A DNA stretch of 64,000 nucleotides from Tardiphaga alba (GTDB lineage: Bacteria > Pseudomonadota > Alphaproteobacteria > Rhizobiales > Xanthobacteraceae), in NCBI RefSeq assembly GCF_018279705.1, contig NZ_CP036498.1, positions 5,721,001 through 5,785,000 of the forward strand. The letters run 5' to 3'. Shown here piece after piece: positions 4,117-50,112 of the stretch. A program made the translations under genes and the position numbers. Position 1 is the first letter of the stretch, and each line of letters starts with the position of its first letter. The notes under the pieces were generated by a model. The model worked only from the letters and a program-made list of their open reading frames with translations. It did no database searches and was not told where the DNA came from.

Positions 4117-5154
4117 TCAGCTATCGAAGGTCAGCACGATCTTGCCGAAATGGCTGCCGCGCGCCATTTCCTCGACGGCGAGCCGAGCATCGGTCCATGG
4201 GAGCACACGGTCGACCACCGGCCGGATGCGATGCAGGGTCAGCGCGCGACACATCGCCTCGAACATCTCCCGGGAACCAACCGACAAGCCCTGCACCTTC
4301 GCAGCGGTCGCGATCATCACCGAAGCGGAGAGTTTCGCCGGTGGGGCACTAGCATCGGTCAACACGCCTATCACCGCGATATGTCCCGCCATGCGGACGG
4401 ACTTCAGGCTTTCGATCAACGTACCCGCTCCTCCGACTTCCATGATGAAGTCGGCACCGCGACCGCCGGTCAGTTTGCGAACCGGACGGTGCCAATCGGG
4501 AACGTCCTTGTAGTTCACCGTGTGGGTCGCTCCGAGTACCGTGGCCCGTGCGAGCTTCTCATCGGAGGACGATGTGATGATCGTCCTCAGCCCGGCCGCC
4601 TTCGCGAATTGCAGACCGAAGATCGAAACGCCGCCGGTCCCCTGCAGCACCACGGTGTCGCCGGGCTCAAGGCGCGCATCGACGAACATCGCCCGCCATG
4701 CTGTCAGTGCGGCACACGGAAGCGTCGCCAATTCCTCATCGGTCAGATAGTCGGGCACTTTCGAAACCGCCGTTTCCGGAAACAGAGCGAGTTCCCTCGC
4801 CGCTCCGGGTGCGCCGGGCGACCCCAGCGGTCCGTCGCGCTTGTCCGGCGTCGGCGGGCCGGCCTGCCAGTTAGGAAAGAACAAGGTCGAGACGCGGTCG
4901 CCCACGGCGACGCGGCGCACGCCTTCGCCAATCGCCGCGACGATGCCGCAACCGTCAGAAAATGGAATAATGGGCGGCGCATCGGCGGCGCCAGCCGAAT
5001 AACCGCCTTTCGCGATGATGGCCGTATCACGGAAATTGAGGGAGATCGTGCGCATTTTCACAACGACCTCGCCTTTGCCGGGCGTGGGATCGGCTTGTTC
5101 GACCATCTTCAGGTTCTCGGTGCCCCAAGGATGGGAAAGCTCCAACGCTCGCAT
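4117..5154 (-). CDS. zinc-free MDR-family NAD(P)-dependent dehydrogenase / quinone-oxidoreductase type
   Basis: 345 residues from ATG 5154 (an upstream ATG at 5238 adds 28 unlikely residues). GroES-like N-terminal domain (SLNFRDTAIIAKGGY), then a Rossmann domain with the dinucleotide motif GTGGVSIFGLQFAK near residue 170 and GGRGADFIMEVGG. The Cys/His ligands of zinc-dependent relatives are absent, so a reductase acting on quinones or enones is likely. Probably cytoplasmic. No close partner on the same strand. Confidence 0.8.
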   Translation of the reverse strand: MRALELSHPWGTENLKMVEQADPTPGKGEVVVKMRTISLNFRDTAIIAKGGYSAGAADAPPIIPFSDGCGIVAAIGEGVRRVAVGDRVSTLFFPNWQAGPPTPDKRDGPLGSPGAPGAARELALFPETAVSKVPDYLTDEELATLPCAALTAWRAMFVDARLEPGDTVVLQGTGGVSIFGLQFAKAAGLRTIITSSSDEKLARATVLGATHTVNYKDVPDWHRPVRKLTGGRGADFIMEVGGAGTLIESLKSVRMAGHIAVIGVLTDASAPPAKLSASVMIATAAKVQGLSVGSREMFEAMCRALTLHRIRPVVDRVLPWTDARLAVEEMARGSHFGKIVLTFDS

Positions 5155-5324
5155 GTGAGTCCTCGCAACGTGCCTCGACCCTGCAGTCGTGACGCGGACC
5201 GGAGGTGACCGCAAGCCCAGATGCAGCATTCCTCTCAAGCGCAGGCCCGCCCGTGGAACATGGACCGAGTTCGGACATTTTCGGGTTGCAGCGCTTCCGC
5301 TGATTCACCCATGAAGGTCACACG

Positions 5325-6723: not shown

Positions 6724-7959
6724 ATGGCGAAACGAACCGGCAGCGCTGATCTTGCTCTTCACGGCGGCCGCGTGCCAGCGTGGCTGGCGACCCGCATGTC
6801 GTCGCTTGGGGCGGTCGTAGCCCAGGCAATCGTGCACCATTACGGTCGGGACGAATTCCTTCGCCGCCTGTCGCATCCTTTCTGGTTTCAATCGTTCGGC
6901 GCGGTGATGGGCATGGACTGGCATTCGTCCGGGATCACCACCAGCGTCATCGGCGCCCTCAAGCGAGGTCTGGGGCCGCTGCAGGACGAACTCGGTATCC
7001 ATGTCTGCGGCGGCCGTGGCCAGCATTCCCGCAAGACGCCGGATGAGCTCCGCGCGCTCGGCGACCGCATAGGCTTAGATGCCGTCGCACTCACCCGCGC
7101 CAGCCGTCTAGTCGCCAAGGTCGACAGCGCCGCCGTCCAGGATGGCTTCGATCTTTATCTGCACGGATTCTTCGTCACCGACGATGGCCGCTGGACCGTC
7201 GTCCAGCAGGGCATGAACGGGGACAGCAAGCAGGCGCGCCGATATCACTGGCACTCCGAAACCGTGAAGAGCTTCGTCGATGCGCCGCACAGCGCCATCG
7301 ACGGGCCGCCGCATGGCGAAGTCGTTAATCTGACCGACCAGCGCGCCGCACCGTCGCGGAGCGCGCAACTGGACCTGCTGACGGCACTCGGCGCGGACGG
7401 CATCGTCGACGAATTCACCGCGTTGACAGGCCGCGCAGCCGCTGCTGCCGCATCTGATCATGCCAGCGCATCACGATGTCCGCTCGAGCGACGTCTTCAC
7501 GCGGCGCCTACACGGTACCCTTGCCGCGGCGGCCGAGCGCGGCCCCATCGACTTTCCGGACTTGCTGCTGACACCGGGCGTCGGCGCGCGCACTGTGCGC
7601 TCCCTCGCGATGGTCGCGGAAATCGTCCACGGCGCCCCTATCGCTTCCGCGATCCCGCCCGCTTTTCGCTCGCTCATGGCGGCAAGGACCGCCATCCCTA
7701 CCCGGTGCCCATCAAGGTCTATGACGAGACCATCCGCGTATTGAAGTCGGCCGTGCAGAAAGCGCGGCTCGGCCGCGAAGAGGAACTGGACACCCTGAAG
7801 CGGCTCGACGACCAGGCACGGCAGCTCGAGCGGATGGCGTCCGGTCCATCGCTTAAGGAGTTTGTCGATGGCGAACTCGAGGCTTCCGCGTCCCTCGGCG
7901 GGCGCTCAGTGTTCGGTTGGGAAGAGGATCGGCGCGATCCACTGGCGGCGGCGAAATGA
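6724..7959 (+). CDS. DUF763 protein with two compensating frameshifts
   Basis: 411 codons remain open. Residues 1-238 match DUF763 (GSADLALHGGRVPAWL, IHVCGGRGQHSRKTP, WHSETVKSFV). From about 7440 to 7640 the family sequence is in another frame (LPHLIMPAHHDV, PDLLLTPGVGARTVRSLAMVAE) while the open frame reads Arg/Ala-rich nonsense. The family sequence returns to the first frame at YRFRDPARFSLAHGGKDRHP and continues to the end. So about 65 central residues are scrambled and the product is probably inactive, unless the two indels are sequencing errors. DUF763 has no settled function. Confidence 0.8.
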   Translation: MAKRTGSADLALHGGRVPAWLATRMSSLGAVVAQAIVHHYGRDEFLRRLSHPFWFQSFGAVMGMDWHSSGITTSVIGALKRGLGPLQDELGIHVCGGRGQHSRKTPDELRALGDRIGLDAVALTRASRLVAKVDSAAVQDGFDLYLHGFFVTDDGRWTVVQQGMNGDSKQARRYHWHSETVKSFVDAPHSAIDGPPHGEVVNLTDQRAAPSRSAQLDLLTALGADGIVDEFTALTGRAAAAAASDHASASRCPLERRLHAAPTRYPCRGGRARPHRLSGLAADTGRRRAHCALPRDGRGNRPRRPYRFRDPARFSLAHGGKDRHPYPVPIKVYDETIRVLKSAVQKARLGREEELDTLKRLDDQARQLERMASGPSLKEFVDGELEASASLGGRSVFGWEEDRRDPLAAAK

Positions 7960-42122: not shown

Positions 42123-44360
42123 TTATGCTCGGAGTGCCTTCCAAGAATTCTGTTCAGCCATGAGCCGTGCCACCGCGACGCCGTCGATCCGGCCGAACTC
42201 GACGAGAACTTCTGCGACTGCTTGCAGCGCACCGCGATGCCGCTGTAGTAGAGCGCGACAAGCATCCTCCGCCTTCAACAATTCTTCACCGGCGGCGCGG
42301 CGGATCTCGGAATAGGTCAACAGCTCGTCAGTGCGCTCCCGAGATGCGAGATAAAGCAACGGGTGCGGACCTGAGTGTCCGATCGAACCCGCCATGGCGG
42401 CCGCCATCGCGCCGGCGATCTGCAAGTCGGATCCCGGCACCCCACCGGATCCGTGTCCGCAATCGCCGAGCAAGAGTATTTCCGCCGTGCGGCCCGCGAG
42501 CAGTACCTGCAGACGCCGGGCATAGTCCTCATACGTGCCGGCAGCATCCAGATCCCTAGTTCGGACAACGCGACCGCCAATGCGCGACGACACTGCGATG
42601 GTGGCGTGCACACCATCGGCACCGTTCAGCAACACTTCGATAACGATGTGGCCGGCTTCATGCACAGCCGAACGGCGCCGCTGCACGTCGGACATATCGT
42701 GCGTGCTGCTAACTGCATTTCGAAGATCTCCATAAGTCAAGCTGCGACCTCCGTCCCGGCGCGCCATGCGGCGTGCGTCCGCGACAACACGCTCGACGTC
42801 AGCACCTGCGCCTCCCAGCGACCGTTCGCAAATGTCCGTCAGATCTTCATTTTTAAGATCGTCACCGAGCCTTACGCGAAACATGCGCTCCAACGTAGCG
42901 AGGTCTGGAAGTTTGATCTCGATCACCGGATTCAGGCGGCCTGGCCGAACCAATGCGGGATCGCATCGACTGACGTCGTTACATGCACCGATGATGATTA
43001 GGTGGCCTTGCGACGCTAGGCCGTCTACCTGCTCAAGCAACGCGTTCACGACTTCGATTTGGTAGTCTTTGTGCGAGTGCGTCAACTCCGCGCGATTTGG
43101 AAATGAATCGAACTCGTCGATGAACAAGACGCAGACCGGATCGGCCAATGCTCGCGCGCGATCGAAATCCTGTTTCATCGCCCTGAGCAAATGTCCAAGA
43201 TGTCCTTCACCTGAACCCTGCCATTGCGCTAAACTGGCGGTTACCAGAGGAAACTTCGCTTCTGCGGCAAACACTTTCGCAAACGTCGTCTTACCGGTGC
43301 CGGGTGGGCCATTCAAAGCGATCTTCGCAGATATCGAACTGAACGGAATCTTTTTGCGCTTCCACGCTTCGACATCGTCGATTGCCGAACGGGCCCAATT
43401 GACCGCTTCATCCATACCGTGCAATTGATCGAGTGTCAGGTCGCGTGAATCGCGTGTTGCATTCTTTTCCGCGGCGAGACGCTCAAGAGCCGTGATGCAG
43501 ACGGTCGGCTTGCGATCGAACCTAACTGCGATCGCGATGTCCGCCATGCTCGTGACCGAAGCAGCAGCCGACGTCAATCGCTTGCGGCACTTCCGTCCGC
43601 TCACGATTTCAATCGTCCGCGTGATCGTGGCGGAGTCAAGACGCGACAGCGTGAGGCGGTGAGTGCAGGCGCGTTGGAGTTCGGCGGGAAGGTGAGCCTC
43701 AGCCCCCGGCGTAAAAGCGAAGACTGGCACCGCCAAAGCGAGCGCCTCCAACACGCTGCGACGGATGTCGTCTACATCGCGAGGTTTCGCAGGTGACCGG
43801 ACGACCATATATGCCGCGTCGTGTCGGCCATGCCTGAGACCGCCCGCGGAGATTTTCGCGCATGCGGCGGCCGAGGGTAGCATGACGTCCCTCCAAATCA
43901 GGGCGATCCGCTCCAGCAGTTCGAGATCGGTCACATCGACAAGCACCACAGGAGATCCGTCCCGGATCTCCTGAGCCAGGCCGATGGAAGCGTCGATCGC
44001 GTCGGCAAGCGCCAGCTTAGCCGCCACATCGATGGCAGTGACGGCGACGATGTCCGGCGCCTTGAAGGCTACGGTCGCACCTTTGTGGTCGTCGTCGTCA
44101 TGGTCAAATTTGCGAAGGGCGGCAAGGCCGGTGACACCCCTCACTTCGGGCGGTACGGATATCTGAAGTTCGTCAGCGCGCTTCGCTTTCGTCGTCAACA
44201 TGCTACGTCGGTAGACACGAGCGGCTTCGGAGCTCTTGCGATGGACTTCTGCTGCCACCGGCCCCATAGCCGGTGGTGCTTCGGATTTCTTGGTGGTGGC
44301 GATGCCGGAGGTGCTGTTGGCACGCCCGCGATTTACGCCGGATTTGTTATTAGTCTTCAT
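42123..44360 (-). CDS. soluble FtsH-like AAA+ zinc metalloprotease
   Basis: 745 residues from MKTNNKSGVNRG (ATG 44360). Residues 100-300 are a unique N-terminal domain with a P-loop-less ATPase look (DGSPVVLVDVTDLELLERIA). AAA+ module: Walker A GPPGTGKT (351-358), Walker B CVLFIDEFDS (Asp/Glu 415-416), arginine finger RPGRLNP (about 475). Peptidase-M41-like domain: SAVHEAGHIVIEVLL with HExxH at 567-571, and GSDLQIAG (Asp near 645) as the likely third zinc ligand. FtsH normally has two N-terminal membrane helices; none is present here, so it is cytoplasmic. Last gene of a minus-strand unit that includes two micro-ORFs and a 171-residue protein. Confidence 0.82.
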   Translation of the reverse strand: MKTNNKSGVNRGRANSTSGIATTKKSEAPPAMGPVAAEVHRKSSEAARVYRRSMLTTKAKRADELQISVPPEVRGVTGLAALRKFDHDDDDHKGATVAFKAPDIVAVTAIDVAAKLALADAIDASIGLAQEIRDGSPVVLVDVTDLELLERIALIWRDVMLPSAAACAKISAGGLRHGRHDAAYMVVRSPAKPRDVDDIRRSVLEALALAVPVFAFTPGAEAHLPAELQRACTHRLTLSRLDSATITRTIEIVSGRKCRKRLTSAAASVTSMADIAIAVRFDRKPTVCITALERLAAEKNATRDSRDLTLDQLHGMDEAVNWARSAIDDVEAWKRKKIPFSSISAKIALNGPPGTGKTTFAKVFAAEAKFPLVTASLAQWQGSGEGHLGHLLRAMKQDFDRARALADPVCVLFIDEFDSFPNRAELTHSHKDYQIEVVNALLEQVDGLASQGHLIIIGACNDVSRCDPALVRPGRLNPVIEIKLPDLATLERMFRVRLGDDLKNEDLTDICERSLGGAGADVERVVADARRMARRDGGRSLTYGDLRNAVSSTHDMSDVQRRRSAVHEAGHIVIEVLLNGADGVHATIAVSSRIGGRVVRTRDLDAAGTYEDYARRLQVLLAGRTAEILLLGDCGHGSGGVPGSDLQIAGAMAAAMAGSIGHSGPHPLLYLASRERTDELLTYSEIRRAAGEELLKAEDACRALLQRHRGALQAVAEVLVEFGRIDGVAVARLMAEQNSWKALRA

Positions 44361-44383
44361 GGTATTTCCATTCGGAGATAGCG

Positions 44384-44443
44384 TTAGGGAGGATGCACCT
44401 GCGGGTTCAGGCCTCTGGCGAAGTAGTTTGTGAGATCGGACAT
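44384..44443 (-). CDS. 19-residue micropeptide, copy B
   Basis: MSDLTNYFARGLNPQVHPP, stop TAA, 23 bp before the AAA+ protease start. GGAGA precedes its ATG at proper spacing. It shares residue 1, FAR at 8-10 and QVHPP at 15-19 with copy A, at identical length. In the shared FAR codons the third bases differ (TTC/TTT, GCC/GCA), as expected if the peptide is selected. Confidence 0.55.
   Translation of the reverse strand: MSDLTNYFARGLNPQVHPP
44385..44402. repeat. 18-bp direct repeat, copy 1
   Basis: TAGGGAGGATGCACCTGC; identical copy at 44489-44506, offset 104 bp. On the minus strand the repeat encodes the shared peptide ending QVHPP and part of the stop codon. Confidence 0.9.
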
Positions 44444-44487
44444 CGATGTCTCCGTTGTGGTGATGGCGAGGTCGGCGACTTTGCATG

Positions 44488-44547
44488 CTAGGGAGGATGC
44501 ACCTGCCACGTTCCGAGTCTTGCAAAGGACGGAATGAAAGTGTTCAT
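44488..44547 (-). CDS. 19-residue micropeptide, copy A
   Basis: MNTFIPSFARLGTWQVHPP, stop TAG. Its ATG (44547) overlaps the TGA of the 171-residue gene, preceded by a strong AAGGAGA. Second copy of the pair with 44384-44443. Could be a leader peptide, a precursor peptide or a small partner of the protease; the sequence cannot tell. Confidence 0.55.
   Translation of the reverse strand: MNTFIPSFARLGTWQVHPP
44489..44506. repeat. 18-bp direct repeat, copy 2
   Basis: Identical to 44385-44402; ends inside the stop region of micropeptide copy A. Confidence 0.9.
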
Positions 44548-45062
44548 CATAGGTCTCCTTCGATGCGACGGACGCGTTCGACACTTTCATCGAGTTCGGG
44601 CCACGCCTGCCGGAAATTGTGCGCAAGCCACGACGCTGCGATACAGAGGCGGTCGATGCGATCGATCGGCATGCGTTTGATCAAGCTTGAGAGCACCAAG
44701 GTCGCCGCAGTGTCGCCGCGGAGAACGTTGTGCAGCAGCACGGTCATCGTGAGATCCGTGCGCACCGTGATCCGGCCGGGGACGCCCATAGTAAGAGCCA
44801 GCTTGATCGCACAAGCCGCATCGCCTGCAATAGCGGCACGCCAAATCGCCATGGTTGAAGATGTCCGTCGCATGCATTCATTGACGGCGTGACGGTGATC
44901 ACGATGGAACGCGTGTGCCGGCACGGACCGCCACAAAACAGTGGCCTGTTGCCAACTCGTCGGCCGTTCGTCGAAGAAGCGCGCCGCGATAGAGTTCGGC
45001 CGCTTGAGTTTGAGTGCGCGGCCGTCGTCAATACGGCCTTTCTCATCCAGTTCGCTACGCAT
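44547..45062 (-). CDS. 171-residue protein of unknown function
   Basis: ATG 45062 has GGAGAACT upstream. The product is mainly helical: ATVLWRSVPAHAFHRDHRHA, TMAIWRAAIAGDAACAIKLA, VLLHNVLRGDTAATLVLSSL and CIAASWLAHNFRQAWPELDE. The alternating helix pairs are reminiscent of ankyrin- or TPR-type scaffolds, but no consensus is met. It is coupled to micropeptide A and lies in the unit ending with the AAA+ protease, so it may be a regulator or adaptor of that enzyme. Confidence 0.55.
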   Translation of the reverse strand: MRSELDEKGRIDDGRALKLKRPNSIAARFFDERPTSWQQATVLWRSVPAHAFHRDHRHAVNECMRRTSSTMAIWRAAIAGDAACAIKLALTMGVPGRITVRTDLTMTVLLHNVLRGDTAATLVLSSLIKRMPIDRIDRLCIAASWLAHNFRQAWPELDESVERVRRIEGDL

Positions 45063-45343: not shown

Positions 45344-45916
45344 CTACCCGATTTGTTTGACCGTGAAGGTCCCATTCTGGGGTCGCCAGTCGCCTACGCC
45401 CTTAGTGAAACCCGCGATGATGAAAAGTTCGACAATCTCGGCGGGGTTCAACAACGTCGGCAGGAAAGACGCACTGAACTCTGCGCTCCAATCTTCGAAG
45501 CAGGGACGGGTACGCATGGCACGCGCGCTGTTCACGCGCACCGGCACTCGCAGCCGGAAGCGATGGTCTTCCCATAGGGCGTCGAGGTCTGCTGGACCGG
45601 CGTATTCCAGCTTTGCATTTGTCTCAACGACCAAGCCGGCGCTCGCCTGAGGTCCTCGTCGACGAGTACGGGCTGCACCGATGAACGTGGCCATCAAAGC
45701 TTCTGCGGTGATGCACGGCACGCCACCGTCGAGCCACAAGCCACCAAACCACTCAGTTTTCCCGATCGCTTCGTGGTCAGCCTCCGTTTTCATCTTCTTC
45801 GAGGTCAATCGGGCGAGGTTCTTGGAGACCGGGTCTAGCGGATCAGCCAGACGACCAGCGTGCATGATGAGGCGTCGCGTTCCCTCAATCCGAATTTTCA
45901 CGTGCTCGGCATTCAT
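45344..45916 (-). CDS. phage-type conserved protein
   Basis: 190 residues from MNAEHVKIRIEGTRRLIMHA (ATG 45916, overlapping the HNH stop). Contains LTSKKMKTEADHEAIGKTEWFGGLWLD, PCITAEALMATFIGAARTRRRG, FRLRVPVRVNSARAMRTRPCFEDW and GFTKGVGDWRPQNGTF. This pattern is common in genes of unknown function in tailed phages and prophages; the strand order suggests a RAMP/Cas7-like beta fold, but that is inference. Confidence 0.65.
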   Translation of the reverse strand: MNAEHVKIRIEGTRRLIMHAGRLADPLDPVSKNLARLTSKKMKTEADHEAIGKTEWFGGLWLDGGVPCITAEALMATFIGAARTRRRGPQASAGLVVETNAKLEYAGPADLDALWEDHRFRLRVPVRVNSARAMRTRPCFEDWSAEFSASFLPTLLNPAEIVELFIIAGFTKGVGDWRPQNGTFTVKQIG

Positions 45917-48329: not shown

Positions 48330-49934
48330 TTACCGAGCCTTCCTTCTCCGTCCGTCGCGCAGTTCGCCCGGCTCGACCTCGTAACGCGGCAGCTTCAGAA
48401 TTTCCGGAAGCATCACGTCCGGCGGGATTTCGCCATAGTTCTCGCCTTCGGTGCGGGGCGCATGGCCCTGGATGGCGTCGCGCTTTTCCGCGTCCAAGCC
48501 CGCCTTGCGCGCCACGGTCTTGAAGCGGTGACGCCAGCCGTGGTTGGGGGCGACCGTCGGATCCGTGATCTCGAGGTCTTCCCGCACCCAACTTGCCAGC
48601 TTGTTTCCGACGGACGTGTAGGTCGGGTTCTTACGGTCTTTCTTGCGCTGGCGCTCAATCGCGTAAAACAGCGGCGTTTCGCCCTGCTTCTGTGCCGCGA
48701 ATTCGAGGAAGCCCTGCTCGACCAGATGCGGGTGGATCGGCACGCTGCGGGCGCGCAGCGTCTTCACCGTGCCCGCCTCCGGCCGGATGTGGACGCACCA
48801 GATGCCATCGTACGTGTGGACGTCCATGGCGCGAAGCTGGGTCATCTCATTGACGCGCGCGCCCGTGTAGGCGCACAGCCAAGGCACCCAACGGCGGGCC
48901 GCCCGGCTCTCCGCCGTCATCTGCTCGCTCATCGGCGCCAGCGCCGCCGACAGGATCGTGGCGGCCTCGTCGTCCCTGAAGCCGCGCATCTTGATGGCTT
49001 TCTTGCTGACGACTTCGACATGCACCTCGGCGGCCGGATCGGACGGCAGCCGCGAATTTCGCTTGGCCCAGCCGAAAAAGCTCTGCGCCGCGGCGATGTA
49101 GGCGAACCTTACGGTCTTGGGAGTGATCAACTTCTTCCGCGGTATCGACTTGTCCAGCAAATTGTCCCGCCAGCCCAGGATGTGCTTCTCGGTGACCCGC
49201 GACATGTCGCGCGTGCCGGCGAAGGACATCAAGGATTCCATGCACGGGAGCCATCGCTTCACCGTGGATGCTGCCAAGGCGCGCCCGACGTCGCCTTTGT
49301 AGTCGTCCCACAGCACGTCGAACTGGTGCGCCGGGTCGGCCGGCCGATCGTAAGCCGGAAAGTCGTCCGCTGCCGGATTCTTCTTGTATTTACCATTGGC
49401 GTTTTCGAGAAGCTCCTCAAGGGCCACGCTCTTGGCGTCGACATACGCTTCCAGGAACAACTTGAGGCGATCTCCGACCAGGATGATGCCCTTCTCCGTC
49501 AGGAATCGGCGAGCCTCCTCGCTGAAGCTCCCGTAGAGATGGCCGTCGTGCATCGGGATGCCGGGGGGCGGAAACCGGCGGCGCTTGGTGGCCGAGAGCT
49601 CGGCTTGGATGTCCAGCGGCTTACCCGGCTCCTCGCTGCGGGCTCCTATCGTCTCCCGGTAGAACTCGCCTGCAAGCCCCGCGATCTGCCGGAACGACAT
49701 CTGTGTCGGCTTCTCTCCGACCAGGCCGGCCTTCCACTCGCGCTCAAGGCGGAGATTGTGCTCCGCACAGAGAGCTACCGCCTCTTCCCAGATCCTGGTC
49801 TCCAACGAGAACCTGATCTCGGTCGGCATTCCAAATTTAAGGTATTTCGCTGGCACGCGCCGACGGAACCAATAGATGGAACTGCGAGGATGTACCCAGG
49901 GTGAGAGCATCTTCTTCTTCGCCAGTCGGCGCAT
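48330..49934 (-). CDS. tyrosine-type site-specific integrase
   Basis: 534 residues from MRRLAKKKMLSPW (ATG 49934); an ATG at 50006 adds 24 and one at 49910 removes 8. N-terminal DUF6538-like part (YWFRRRVPAKYLKFG), a core-binding domain near 220-300 and the catalytic domain with Arg in CAYTGARVNEM (360), Lys near 391, HGWRHRF (His465, Arg468), IQGHAP (His491) and the tyrosine in GENYGEIP (500). All catalytic residues are present. It reads away from tRNA-Ser, whose 3' end is about 90 bp from the start; island integrases of this type insert at tRNA 3' ends. Confidence 0.9.
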   Translation of the reverse strand: MRRLAKKKMLSPWVHPRSSIYWFRRRVPAKYLKFGMPTEIRFSLETRIWEEAVALCAEHNLRLEREWKAGLVGEKPTQMSFRQIAGLAGEFYRETIGARSEEPGKPLDIQAELSATKRRRFPPPGIPMHDGHLYGSFSEEARRFLTEKGIILVGDRLKLFLEAYVDAKSVALEELLENANGKYKKNPAADDFPAYDRPADPAHQFDVLWDDYKGDVGRALAASTVKRWLPCMESLMSFAGTRDMSRVTEKHILGWRDNLLDKSIPRKKLITPKTVRFAYIAAAQSFFGWAKRNSRLPSDPAAEVHVEVVSKKAIKMRGFRDDEAATILSAALAPMSEQMTAESRAARRWVPWLCAYTGARVNEMTQLRAMDVHTYDGIWCVHIRPEAGTVKTLRARSVPIHPHLVEQGFLEFAAQKQGETPLFYAIERQRKKDRKNPTYTSVGNKLASWVREDLEITDPTVAPNHGWRHRFKTVARKAGLDAEKRDAIQGHAPRTEGENYGEIPPDVMLPEILKLPRYEVEPGELRDGRRRKAR

Positions 49935-50022
49935 GTTGTGGACACTTTCGTGTACACCGAACCGATTGCGAAAGCCTTGTTTCGAAAGAAACAATTTGAA
50001 TTTCAAGGCTTTAAGGGGCTAC

Positions 50023-50112
50023 TGGCGGAGAGAGAGGGATTCGAACCCTCGGTACGGTTTCCCGCACACACGCGTTCCAGGCGTGCGCCTTCAACCACTC
50101 GGCCACCTCCCC
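50023..50112 (-). tRNA. tRNA-Ser (GGA)
   Basis: 90 nt on the minus strand including an encoded CCA (50025-50023). Acceptor stem GGGGAGG pairs with TCTCTCC using G-U pairs; D arm TGGCCGAGTGGTTGAAGGC; anticodon stem CACGC/GCGTG with loop CTGGAAC (GGA); long variable arm; T arm GAGGGTTCGAATCCCTC. The 3' end abuts the integrase gene and is the likely attachment site. Confidence 0.95.

Follow-up and report, generated by a model that had tools for sequence, protein, structure and literature searches.

Two tandem micro-ORFs, referred to as A and B, precede the gene of an FtsH-like protease in the DNA stretch studied here (64,000 nucleotides, hereafter the window), and the comparison with orthologous loci indicates that their common QVHPP tails are constrained on residues and codons together and in a frame-dependent manner, which represents the main new result of this analysis. 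Within a group of soil bacteria, the pair stands in the same order upstream of the protease at each of the nine distinct full-length loci with a protease of at least 52% identity to that of the window, which is itself counted among the nine. As deduced from these comparisons, A and B may represent translated, cis-acting tandem leader peptides within the operon that gate the protease by a pause at termination, an interpretation to which we assign about an even chance of being correct.

The protease operon in the window

The gene order comprises a divergent HTH gene on the plus strand, followed on the minus strand by an HNH-like gene, a gene of PHROG family 4652, the gene of a 171-aa protein, A, B, and the protease (Table 1). 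Direct reading and domain search confirmed the original prediction of two tandem 19-codon ORFs ending with QVHPP-stop in front of an FtsH-like protease. Likewise, a GGAGA-type ribosome-binding site is present for each ORF, A starts on the stop of the upstream gene, and B ends 23 bp before the protease, as had been stated. The ATG of A overlaps the TGA stop of the 171-aa gene (44549..44547) within the string TGATG, and an alternative in-frame ATG is located one codon earlier (44550), which would give MMNTF... as the start of the peptide. The third bases of the FAR codons, which had been described as differing between the copies, do so for Phe (TTT/TTC) and Ala (GCA/GCC), but the Arg codon is identical (AGA/AGA).

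Table 1. Coordinates of the micro-ORFs, their conserved elements, and neighboring genes in the window.
Feature	Position	Strand	Sequence or description	Remarks
Micro-ORF A	44488..44547	(-)	MNTFIPSFARLGTWQVHPP, TAG stop, 19 codons	Read directly; orthologous A at 8 other loci
Micro-ORF B	44384..44443	(-)	MSDLTNYFARGLNPQVHPP, TAA stop, 19 codons	Read directly; orthologous B at 8 other loci
Conserved tail of A	44488..44505	(-)	CAG GTG CAT CCT CCC TAG, then C	
Conserved tail of B	44384..44401	(-)	CAG GTG CAT CCT CCC TAA, then C	
Conserved block of A	44518..44526	(-)	TTT GCA AGA (F-A-R)	12 nt before tail of A; third codon is ATA (Ile) at other loci
Conserved block of B	44414..44422	(-)	TTC GCC AGA (F-A-R)	12 nt before tail of B
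Ribosome-binding site of A	44554..44560	(-)	AAGGAGA	Read directly
Ribosome-binding site of B	44449..44453	(-)	GGAGA	Read directly
Spacer A to B	44444..44487	(-)	C 39%, G 20%	Length varies among loci
Spacer B to protease	44361..44383	(-)	23 nt in the window, 23-37 nt over nine loci	Weak ribosome-binding site
AAA+/M41 FtsH-like protease	42123..44360	(-)	745 aa	ATG at 44360, 23 nt after the B stop
171-aa protein	44547..45062	(-)	Gene upstream of A in the window	
Protein of PHROG family 4652 (phrog_4652)	45344-45916	(-)	Between the HNH-like and 171-aa genes	PHROG match; family of unknown function

The protease carries an HEAGH motif and matched the Pfam families PF00004 (AAA) and PF01434 (Peptidase_M41) above their cut-offs. 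However, its score for the NCBIfam FtsH equivalog was 146 bits and thus far under the cut-off of 600, so that the designation 'FtsH-like' is right for this protein and 'FtsH' is not. The HNH-like gene reached 20.1 bits for Pfam HNH, slightly below the cut-off of 21.4, and was matched by several PHROG HNH families. For the 171-aa protein, no match was obtained in Pfam, NCBIfam, PADLOC, or PHROG. When six other QVHPP loci were compared, five of them featured ORFs resembling phrog_4652 ahead of the protease gene.

An integrase-like gene is located approximately 3.8 kb upstream of A, featuring DUF6538 above the cut-off and Phage_integrase with 25.6 bits (cut-off 27.1). At 48330-50112, this gene abuts a tRNA-Ser (GGA) gene, which is consistent with a genomic island inserted at tRNA-Ser, in which the protease operon appears to reside. 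PADLOC reported no defence system, the AAA-domain, HNH, and HTH similarities being restricted to parts of known systems.

Distribution and evolution of the tandem micro-ORFs

Homologues of the protease were searched for at the protein level in 200 relatives (195 with any match, mostly weak), in 391 genomes of the family (43 at E <= 1e-60, the own genome counted), in 265 genomes of the G424 genus (19 at E <= 1e-90), in 16 genomes of the G319 genus (one), and in plasmids (11 records at E <= 1e-40), while the same search of an assembled-genome contig collection gave no match. Each retrieved locus was oriented by its protease, and up to 600 nt upstream were scanned for ORFs ending with QVHPP-stop. 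The nine loci carrying the pair are the window, G017, G013, G012, G015, G319, G424, G572 (= L045), and G557 (= L046); G009 repeats G012 and was not counted as a distinct locus. Protease identity between the six groups of loci ranges between 50 and 75%.

Homologous loci devoid of FAR/QVHPP ORFs had been named beforehand as the observation that would speak against the prediction. Such loci were not encountered among the full-length homologues of at least 52% identity, whereas the more distant homologues examined do lack the pair: it was absent from all 17 distinct loci at 40-49% and from all 38 distinct loci at 27-37% protease identity, counts that cover the loci retrieved. This distribution indicates that the pair is an innovation of one protease clade. 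Two loci with a local identity above 52% but without the pair are partial genes, namely, L024 (G011; 150 residues aligned, open frame of 376 aa) and L063/L084 (G465; 398 residues aligned, open frame of 584 aa), and possibly represent decaying copies of the protease gene.

At the nucleotide level, the tail pattern was found in 8 of the 391 family genomes (the own genome counted), and the tandem pattern in seven stretches of the assembled-genome contig collection, the named contigs being titled Xanthobacteraceae, Hyphomicrobiales, Tardiphaga, Rhodopseudomonas, Bradyrhizobiaceae, and Bradyrhizobium. Even if two mismatches are tolerated, the tail pattern occurs in the 5.86-Mb genome only at the two window sites, and the reversed pattern, used as a control, had no match in the same genome. 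A phage origin was rejected, since no match was obtained in phage records at E 1e-20 and the tandem pattern was absent from the viral contig collection; a looser scan of the viral contigs for single tails gave one match, which featured no stop after PP and was taken as chance.

The micro-ORFs comprise 19 codons in 16 of the 18 copies and 21 codons in the B copies of G013 and G012, where the extra length originates from an in-frame insertion near the start, representing the only indel within the ORFs. In all copies, an in-frame ATG is preceded by a GGAG- or GGAA-type site, and neither an internal stop nor a frame-breaking indel was detected. While the N-terminal halves vary at every locus, the last 12 codons form a module without any indel in all 18 copies ([F/L/S]-A-[I/R]-x3-[W/F/P]-Q-V-H-P-P-stop). 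The tail-to-tail distance amounts to 104, 107, 108, 110, 111, or 117 nt over the nine loci, so that the spacers take indels that are not multiples of three, whereas the ORFs do not. This difference between spacers and ORFs argues that the micro-ORFs are translated. Translation and the originally proposed selection on the peptide are both well supported by the comparison of the loci.

Furthermore, each copy possesses features of its own. The A copies of all nine loci feature CTC after ATA or AGA, and W, F, or P as the residue before Gln, while the B copies carry Pro before Gln throughout. Since A and B retain these features across loci, the duplication is deduced to predate the split of these lineages, the proteases of which have diverged to the identities given above. 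The caveat that a recent duplication alone could explain the repeat was rejected on the same evidence, at least as the whole explanation.

In contrast to the pair, the gene upstream of it differs between loci. As judged from the reading frames (with Pfam Metallophos tested on G012), a metallophosphoesterase gene runs into A in seven of the nine loci, whereas the 171-aa gene runs straight into A in the window. In G017 (L054), a gene of the 171-aa type is followed by a short 3' relic of the metallophosphoesterase directly before A. The position of this relic between the two indicates that the upstream gene was exchanged and the pair was kept. At the eight loci inspected in this respect, A overlaps the stop of the upstream gene; after the metallophosphoesterase, or its relic in G017, the overlap lies within ATGACTGA or a similar string.

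Among the distant M41 homologues, L010 and L012 (33-34% identity) feature a metallophosphoesterase-like frame that appears to end at, or overlap, the protease start, so that metallophosphoesterase and FtsH-like protease may form a wider module. In relatives devoid of QVHPP, the metallophosphoesterase stop is overlapped by a small ORF of another type, which contains several prolines in a row (RKPxHER...PPP). This applies to L081 (approximately 5105-5281; the same in L108), where a DUF6634 gene comes next, and to L082 (near 7556-7670, reverse-complement orientation). These two distinct loci hint that proline-rich small ORFs may have arisen at this place more than once.

Codon-level constraint and alternative explanations

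Among the tail codons of the 18 copies, GTG and the CCC of the last Pro are invariant, CAG is present in 17 and CAT in 16 copies, and the Ile codon of the module is ATA in 16 out of 16 cases, the two window copies featuring AGA instead. For the first Pro of the tail, all four codons are used, and the third base of this codon is the only one in the tail that is free to vary. For the proteases encoded at these nine loci, CCC accounts for 22% of Pro, GTG for 35% of Val, and ATA for 1.1% of Ile codons. The corresponding values for 177 long ORFs sampled from the genome are 23%, 38%, and 7.2%; this sample may include false ORFs, which renders the rarity of ATA (1.1% vs. 7.2%) less certain. None of the invariant protease columns for Val (0/17) or Pro (0/12) keeps one codon in all nine loci. 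When one locus from each of the six diverged groups was considered, 9 of 14 invariant degenerate columns kept one codon in the tails as compared to 29 of 239 in the protease (Fisher p = 1.8e-5). The columns are not entirely independent of each other, and sequence may have been exchanged between the A and B copies of the same locus.

The constraint extends to the stop codon and the base following it. The copies end with TAG (16) or TAA (2) and never with TGA, which terminates 94 of the 177 sampled ORFs, and the +4 base is C in all 18 copies vs. 57 of the 177 genome ORFs (32%). Over 12 copies, the near-invariant nucleotides read GC.A.A..C.........CA.GTGCA.CC.CCCTA.C, corresponding to two blocks at a fixed distance of 12 nt.

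Folding of ten tails resulted in z values between -1.9 and -3.1 for five of them, while the other five, including both window copies, folded no better than shuffled sequences. At the level of the alignment, the energy of the tail hairpin was reached by 1% of 100 column shuffles. However, in neither of the two candidate hairpins evaluated on 12 copies did both partners of any pair differ between copies, and re-dealt hairpin partners reached the observed share of paired cells in 203 and 482 of 500 shuffles, respectively. A stable RNA hairpin was rejected as the cause of the synonymous conservation, because half of the tails folded no better than shuffles, compensatory pairs were missing, and re-dealt partners performed about equally well. 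In the same sets of ten folded tails and 12 copies, no conserved attenuator structure was found, and Rfam gave no match at E <= 1 for the region 44300-44700.

The two spaced blocks, together with the hairpin seen in some copies and its alignment-level energy, would fit tails that are bound, as RNA or DNA, by a regulator, by a small RNA, or by the HTH protein encoded divergently, the ORFs being incidental. We regard this explanation as unlikely, because ATG, ribosome-binding site, and open frame are maintained in 18 out of 18 copies with frame-breaking indels confined to the spacers, and because the sole free base of the tail coincides with the third base of a Pro codon. Moreover, neither hairpin features a compensatory pair, no further tail occurs in the genome within two mismatches, and Rfam contributed nothing.

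A and B could also be two small proteins acting in trans, with the shared QVHPP C-terminus docking on the protease (as inhibitor, adaptor, or degron) or on another product of the operon. The exact conservation of the five C-terminal residues in both copies and the linkage to one protease clade are in agreement with this possibility, and FtsH-type enzymes read chain ends. However, a trans-acting peptide needs no conservation of synonymous sites, which are far more conserved in the tails than in the protease, and purely trans-acting peptides would thus be insufficient. The variable N-terminal halves also speak against it, and the stop class and the C at +4 are left unexplained, so that we consider a role in trans distinctly unlikely. 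Of the three roles envisaged in the original prediction, the leader peptide fits best, and small protease partners are possible but leave the synonymous conservation unexplained. For precursor peptides, no support was obtained, as none of the window proteins scanned (six with Pfam, five with NCBIfam) was recognised as an enzyme of modification or export.

The stop/start overlap at A, the short spacers, and the ribosome-binding sites at each step would likewise suit a simple translational relay, in which the micro-ORFs do no more than hand on ribosomes between the upstream gene and the protease, thereby fixing the ratio of these two, with no pause involved. A relay needs neither a specific peptide end nor specific codons, yet these represent the most conserved nucleotides of the leader, which makes it quite improbable.

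Regarding the reading frames, B is connected to the protease by the +1 frame in four of the nine loci, by frame 0 in another four, and by the -1 frame in the window, whereas the +1 frame from A reaches the protease in two of the nine loci. In the window, the +1 frame continues from the end of A into the protease without a stop (44525-44361; 800-aa ORF), which is otherwise the case in G013 only and is probably incidental. Programmed recoding, by which the peptide would be extended into the protease through +1 slippage at CCC-UAR or stop-codon read-through, could draw on this open frame and on CC[C/U]-[C/U], CCC-U included, being slippery (PMC4519876), but was rejected as highly improbable since the nine loci share no common frame.

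A proposed tandem leader peptide in comparison with known systems

For A and B as cis-acting leader peptides, the following course of events may be proposed. Ribosomes ending the upstream gene would start on A by way of the observed stop/start overlap, through presumed translational coupling. The 12-codon module would then join several slow features, namely, an uncommon codon, Pro-Pro with the slow and slippery codon CCC occupying the P site, and UAG or UAA as the stop with C as the next base. These two stop codons are read by RF1, and C after the stop constitutes a weak termination context. The result would be a programmed pause at termination, during which the nascent VHPP would reside in the tunnel. 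The dwell of the ribosome at the end of A, and subsequently at the end of B, would decide whether the protease is made. A ribosome at B may block or feed initiation 23-37 nt downstream, the protease start being within approximately one footprint, or, as a second option, it may protect the leader, which is rich in C and poor in G, against Rho in the manner of the tna operon; during a pause at A, it would cover the start of the A-B spacer. Such a pause could raise or lower protease synthesis, and no signal or ligand was indicated by the sequence analysis.

A further part of the pause module may be provided by the SD-like stretch AGGUG in CAG-GTG, which is complementary to CACCU of the 16S rRNA 3' end and ends 6 nt before CCC, i.e., at the normal initiation distance for SD-type pairing. 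Duplex energies with the 16S tail reach -15.8 kcal/mol, which is not exceptional among synonymous recodings. The complementarity was equalled by 9-17% of these recodings in 15 of the 18 copies and by 30-52% in the other three, and, taken alone, it represents weak evidence.

In the whole leader, the excess of C over G was above that of all same-length windows of the own protease gene, which served as the only control, in eight of the nine loci, and above 98.5% of them in the ninth. For single spacers, the corresponding fractions ranged between 0.002 and 0.34 (A-B) and between 0.025 and 0.55 (B-protease) and were clearly exceptional in some loci only. Leader structure was no greater than that of mononucleotide shuffles in the six of nine loci tested.

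Published data on the individual features, as far as covered by the parts of the sources cited here, partly agree with a pause. Diproline synthesis was reported to be slowest with CCC (PMC8129111), CC[C/U] to be slippery if C or U comes next (PMC4519876), both RF1 and RF2 to release peptides inefficiently after a C-terminal Pro (Pierson et al. 2016, quoted in PMC7246954), and a C-terminal Pro to induce ssrA tagging (Hayes et al. 2002, quoted in PMC7246954). As a counter-point, C-terminal Pro-Pro only mildly lowered expression in one reporter library (0.81), in which a single C-terminal Pro caused no significant drop (PMC7246954).

More tentatively, and with considerable doubt, the loci may represent a new class of termination arrest, in which peptide and codons jointly build the pause. 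It would be composed of AUA or AGA, V-H-P-P with its last codon CCC occupying the P site, a stop readable by RF1 with C as the next base, and the SD-like AGGUG at initiation distance, and be arranged as an obligatory tandem pair gating an FtsH-like protease, the synthesis of which would report on termination (RF1, charged tRNA-Pro, tmRNA, or a drug).

TnaC, the leader peptide of the tna operon, features a C-terminal His two residues before the final Pro, which resembles VHPP. It comprises 24 aa and stalls while Pro24 occupies the P site and the stop codon the A site, a Rho site being located just downstream (PMC8429421, in part). A leader with a Pro-stop end upstream of the regulated gene is thus common to both systems, PP-stop being present here in all 18 copies of the nine loci. 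On the other hand, TnaC differs in its sequence, UGA stop, single copy, and tryptophan signal from the two UAR-terminated copies described here, for which arrest is proposed. Its Trp12 is fixed, whereas Trp is confined here to position -6 of the A copies at three of the nine loci (window, G015, and G319). With respect to the Rho site after the TnaC leader, a whole-leader excess of C over G with little structure was observed here, single spacers being unexceptional in several loci.

The prfB frameshift site reads CUU UGA C. Similar to the tails, it combines a slippery P-site codon, a stop, C after the stop, and an SD-like stretch upstream (general description in PMC4519876, in part); unlike prfB, the micro-ORFs have no conserved frame into the downstream gene.

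The copper-related leaders CruR and CutF likewise represent upstream ORFs with a proline motif near the end (PMC9426467, PMC9973294), and a C>G, unstructured stretch of the CruR leader coincides with a proven Rho terminator (PMC9426467). However, CruR is described in these partial sources as a protein of approximately 145 residues that features CXXC as a copper motif and carries RAPP at a distance of three residues from the end, as opposed to two copies of 19-21 aa with terminal HPP and no CXXC. Moreover, the proline-rich stretch of CutF is not by itself a strong stalling sequence according to its authors.

For the NSP-stop/NAP-stop peptides upstream of secA/secDF, arrest was mapped with the stop in the A site after the final Pro (PMC10987492, in part), but these peptides are tied to secretion genes and possess a different motif. 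The RAPP-like arrest peptides (RQH family, ApdP, and SecM) carry RAPP, RGPP, HAPP, QAPP, RAGP, or RAPG as described in part of the same source, whereas V-H-P-P was found in all 18 copies here, and they are encoded upstream of secA, secDF, or yidC rather than of an AAA/M41 protease. An N-terminal localisation signal is a further characteristic of these arrest peptides, the peptides described here comprising only 19-21 aa. Two short ORFs in one leader are also known from mgtM/mgtP of mgtCBR, mgtP being a cis-acting ORF of 17 codons with three consecutive prolines (PMC3641672, in part). According to this source, the two mgt ORFs differ from each other, respond to two signals, and act by stem-loop switching, which was not seen here, where the tail is shared.

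In the literature covered, with most subscription papers outside this scope, no description of QVHPP or of such a micro-ORF pair was found. Leader peptides with a proline-dependent pause are a known kind, on which the 12-codon module with its constrained codons and the invariable tandem arrangement represent a new variation. If the proposed function is true, the small set of known termination-arrest peptides would be extended by a leader-peptide module whose codon requirement can be tested, and the pair would represent a termination-arrest leader in Alphaproteobacteria located before a protease rather than before a secretion or metabolic gene. The nine loci provide natural variants that are directly testable in a cell-free or reporter system, and the strict pair of identical tails raises the question of why two pauses, and not one, would be required.
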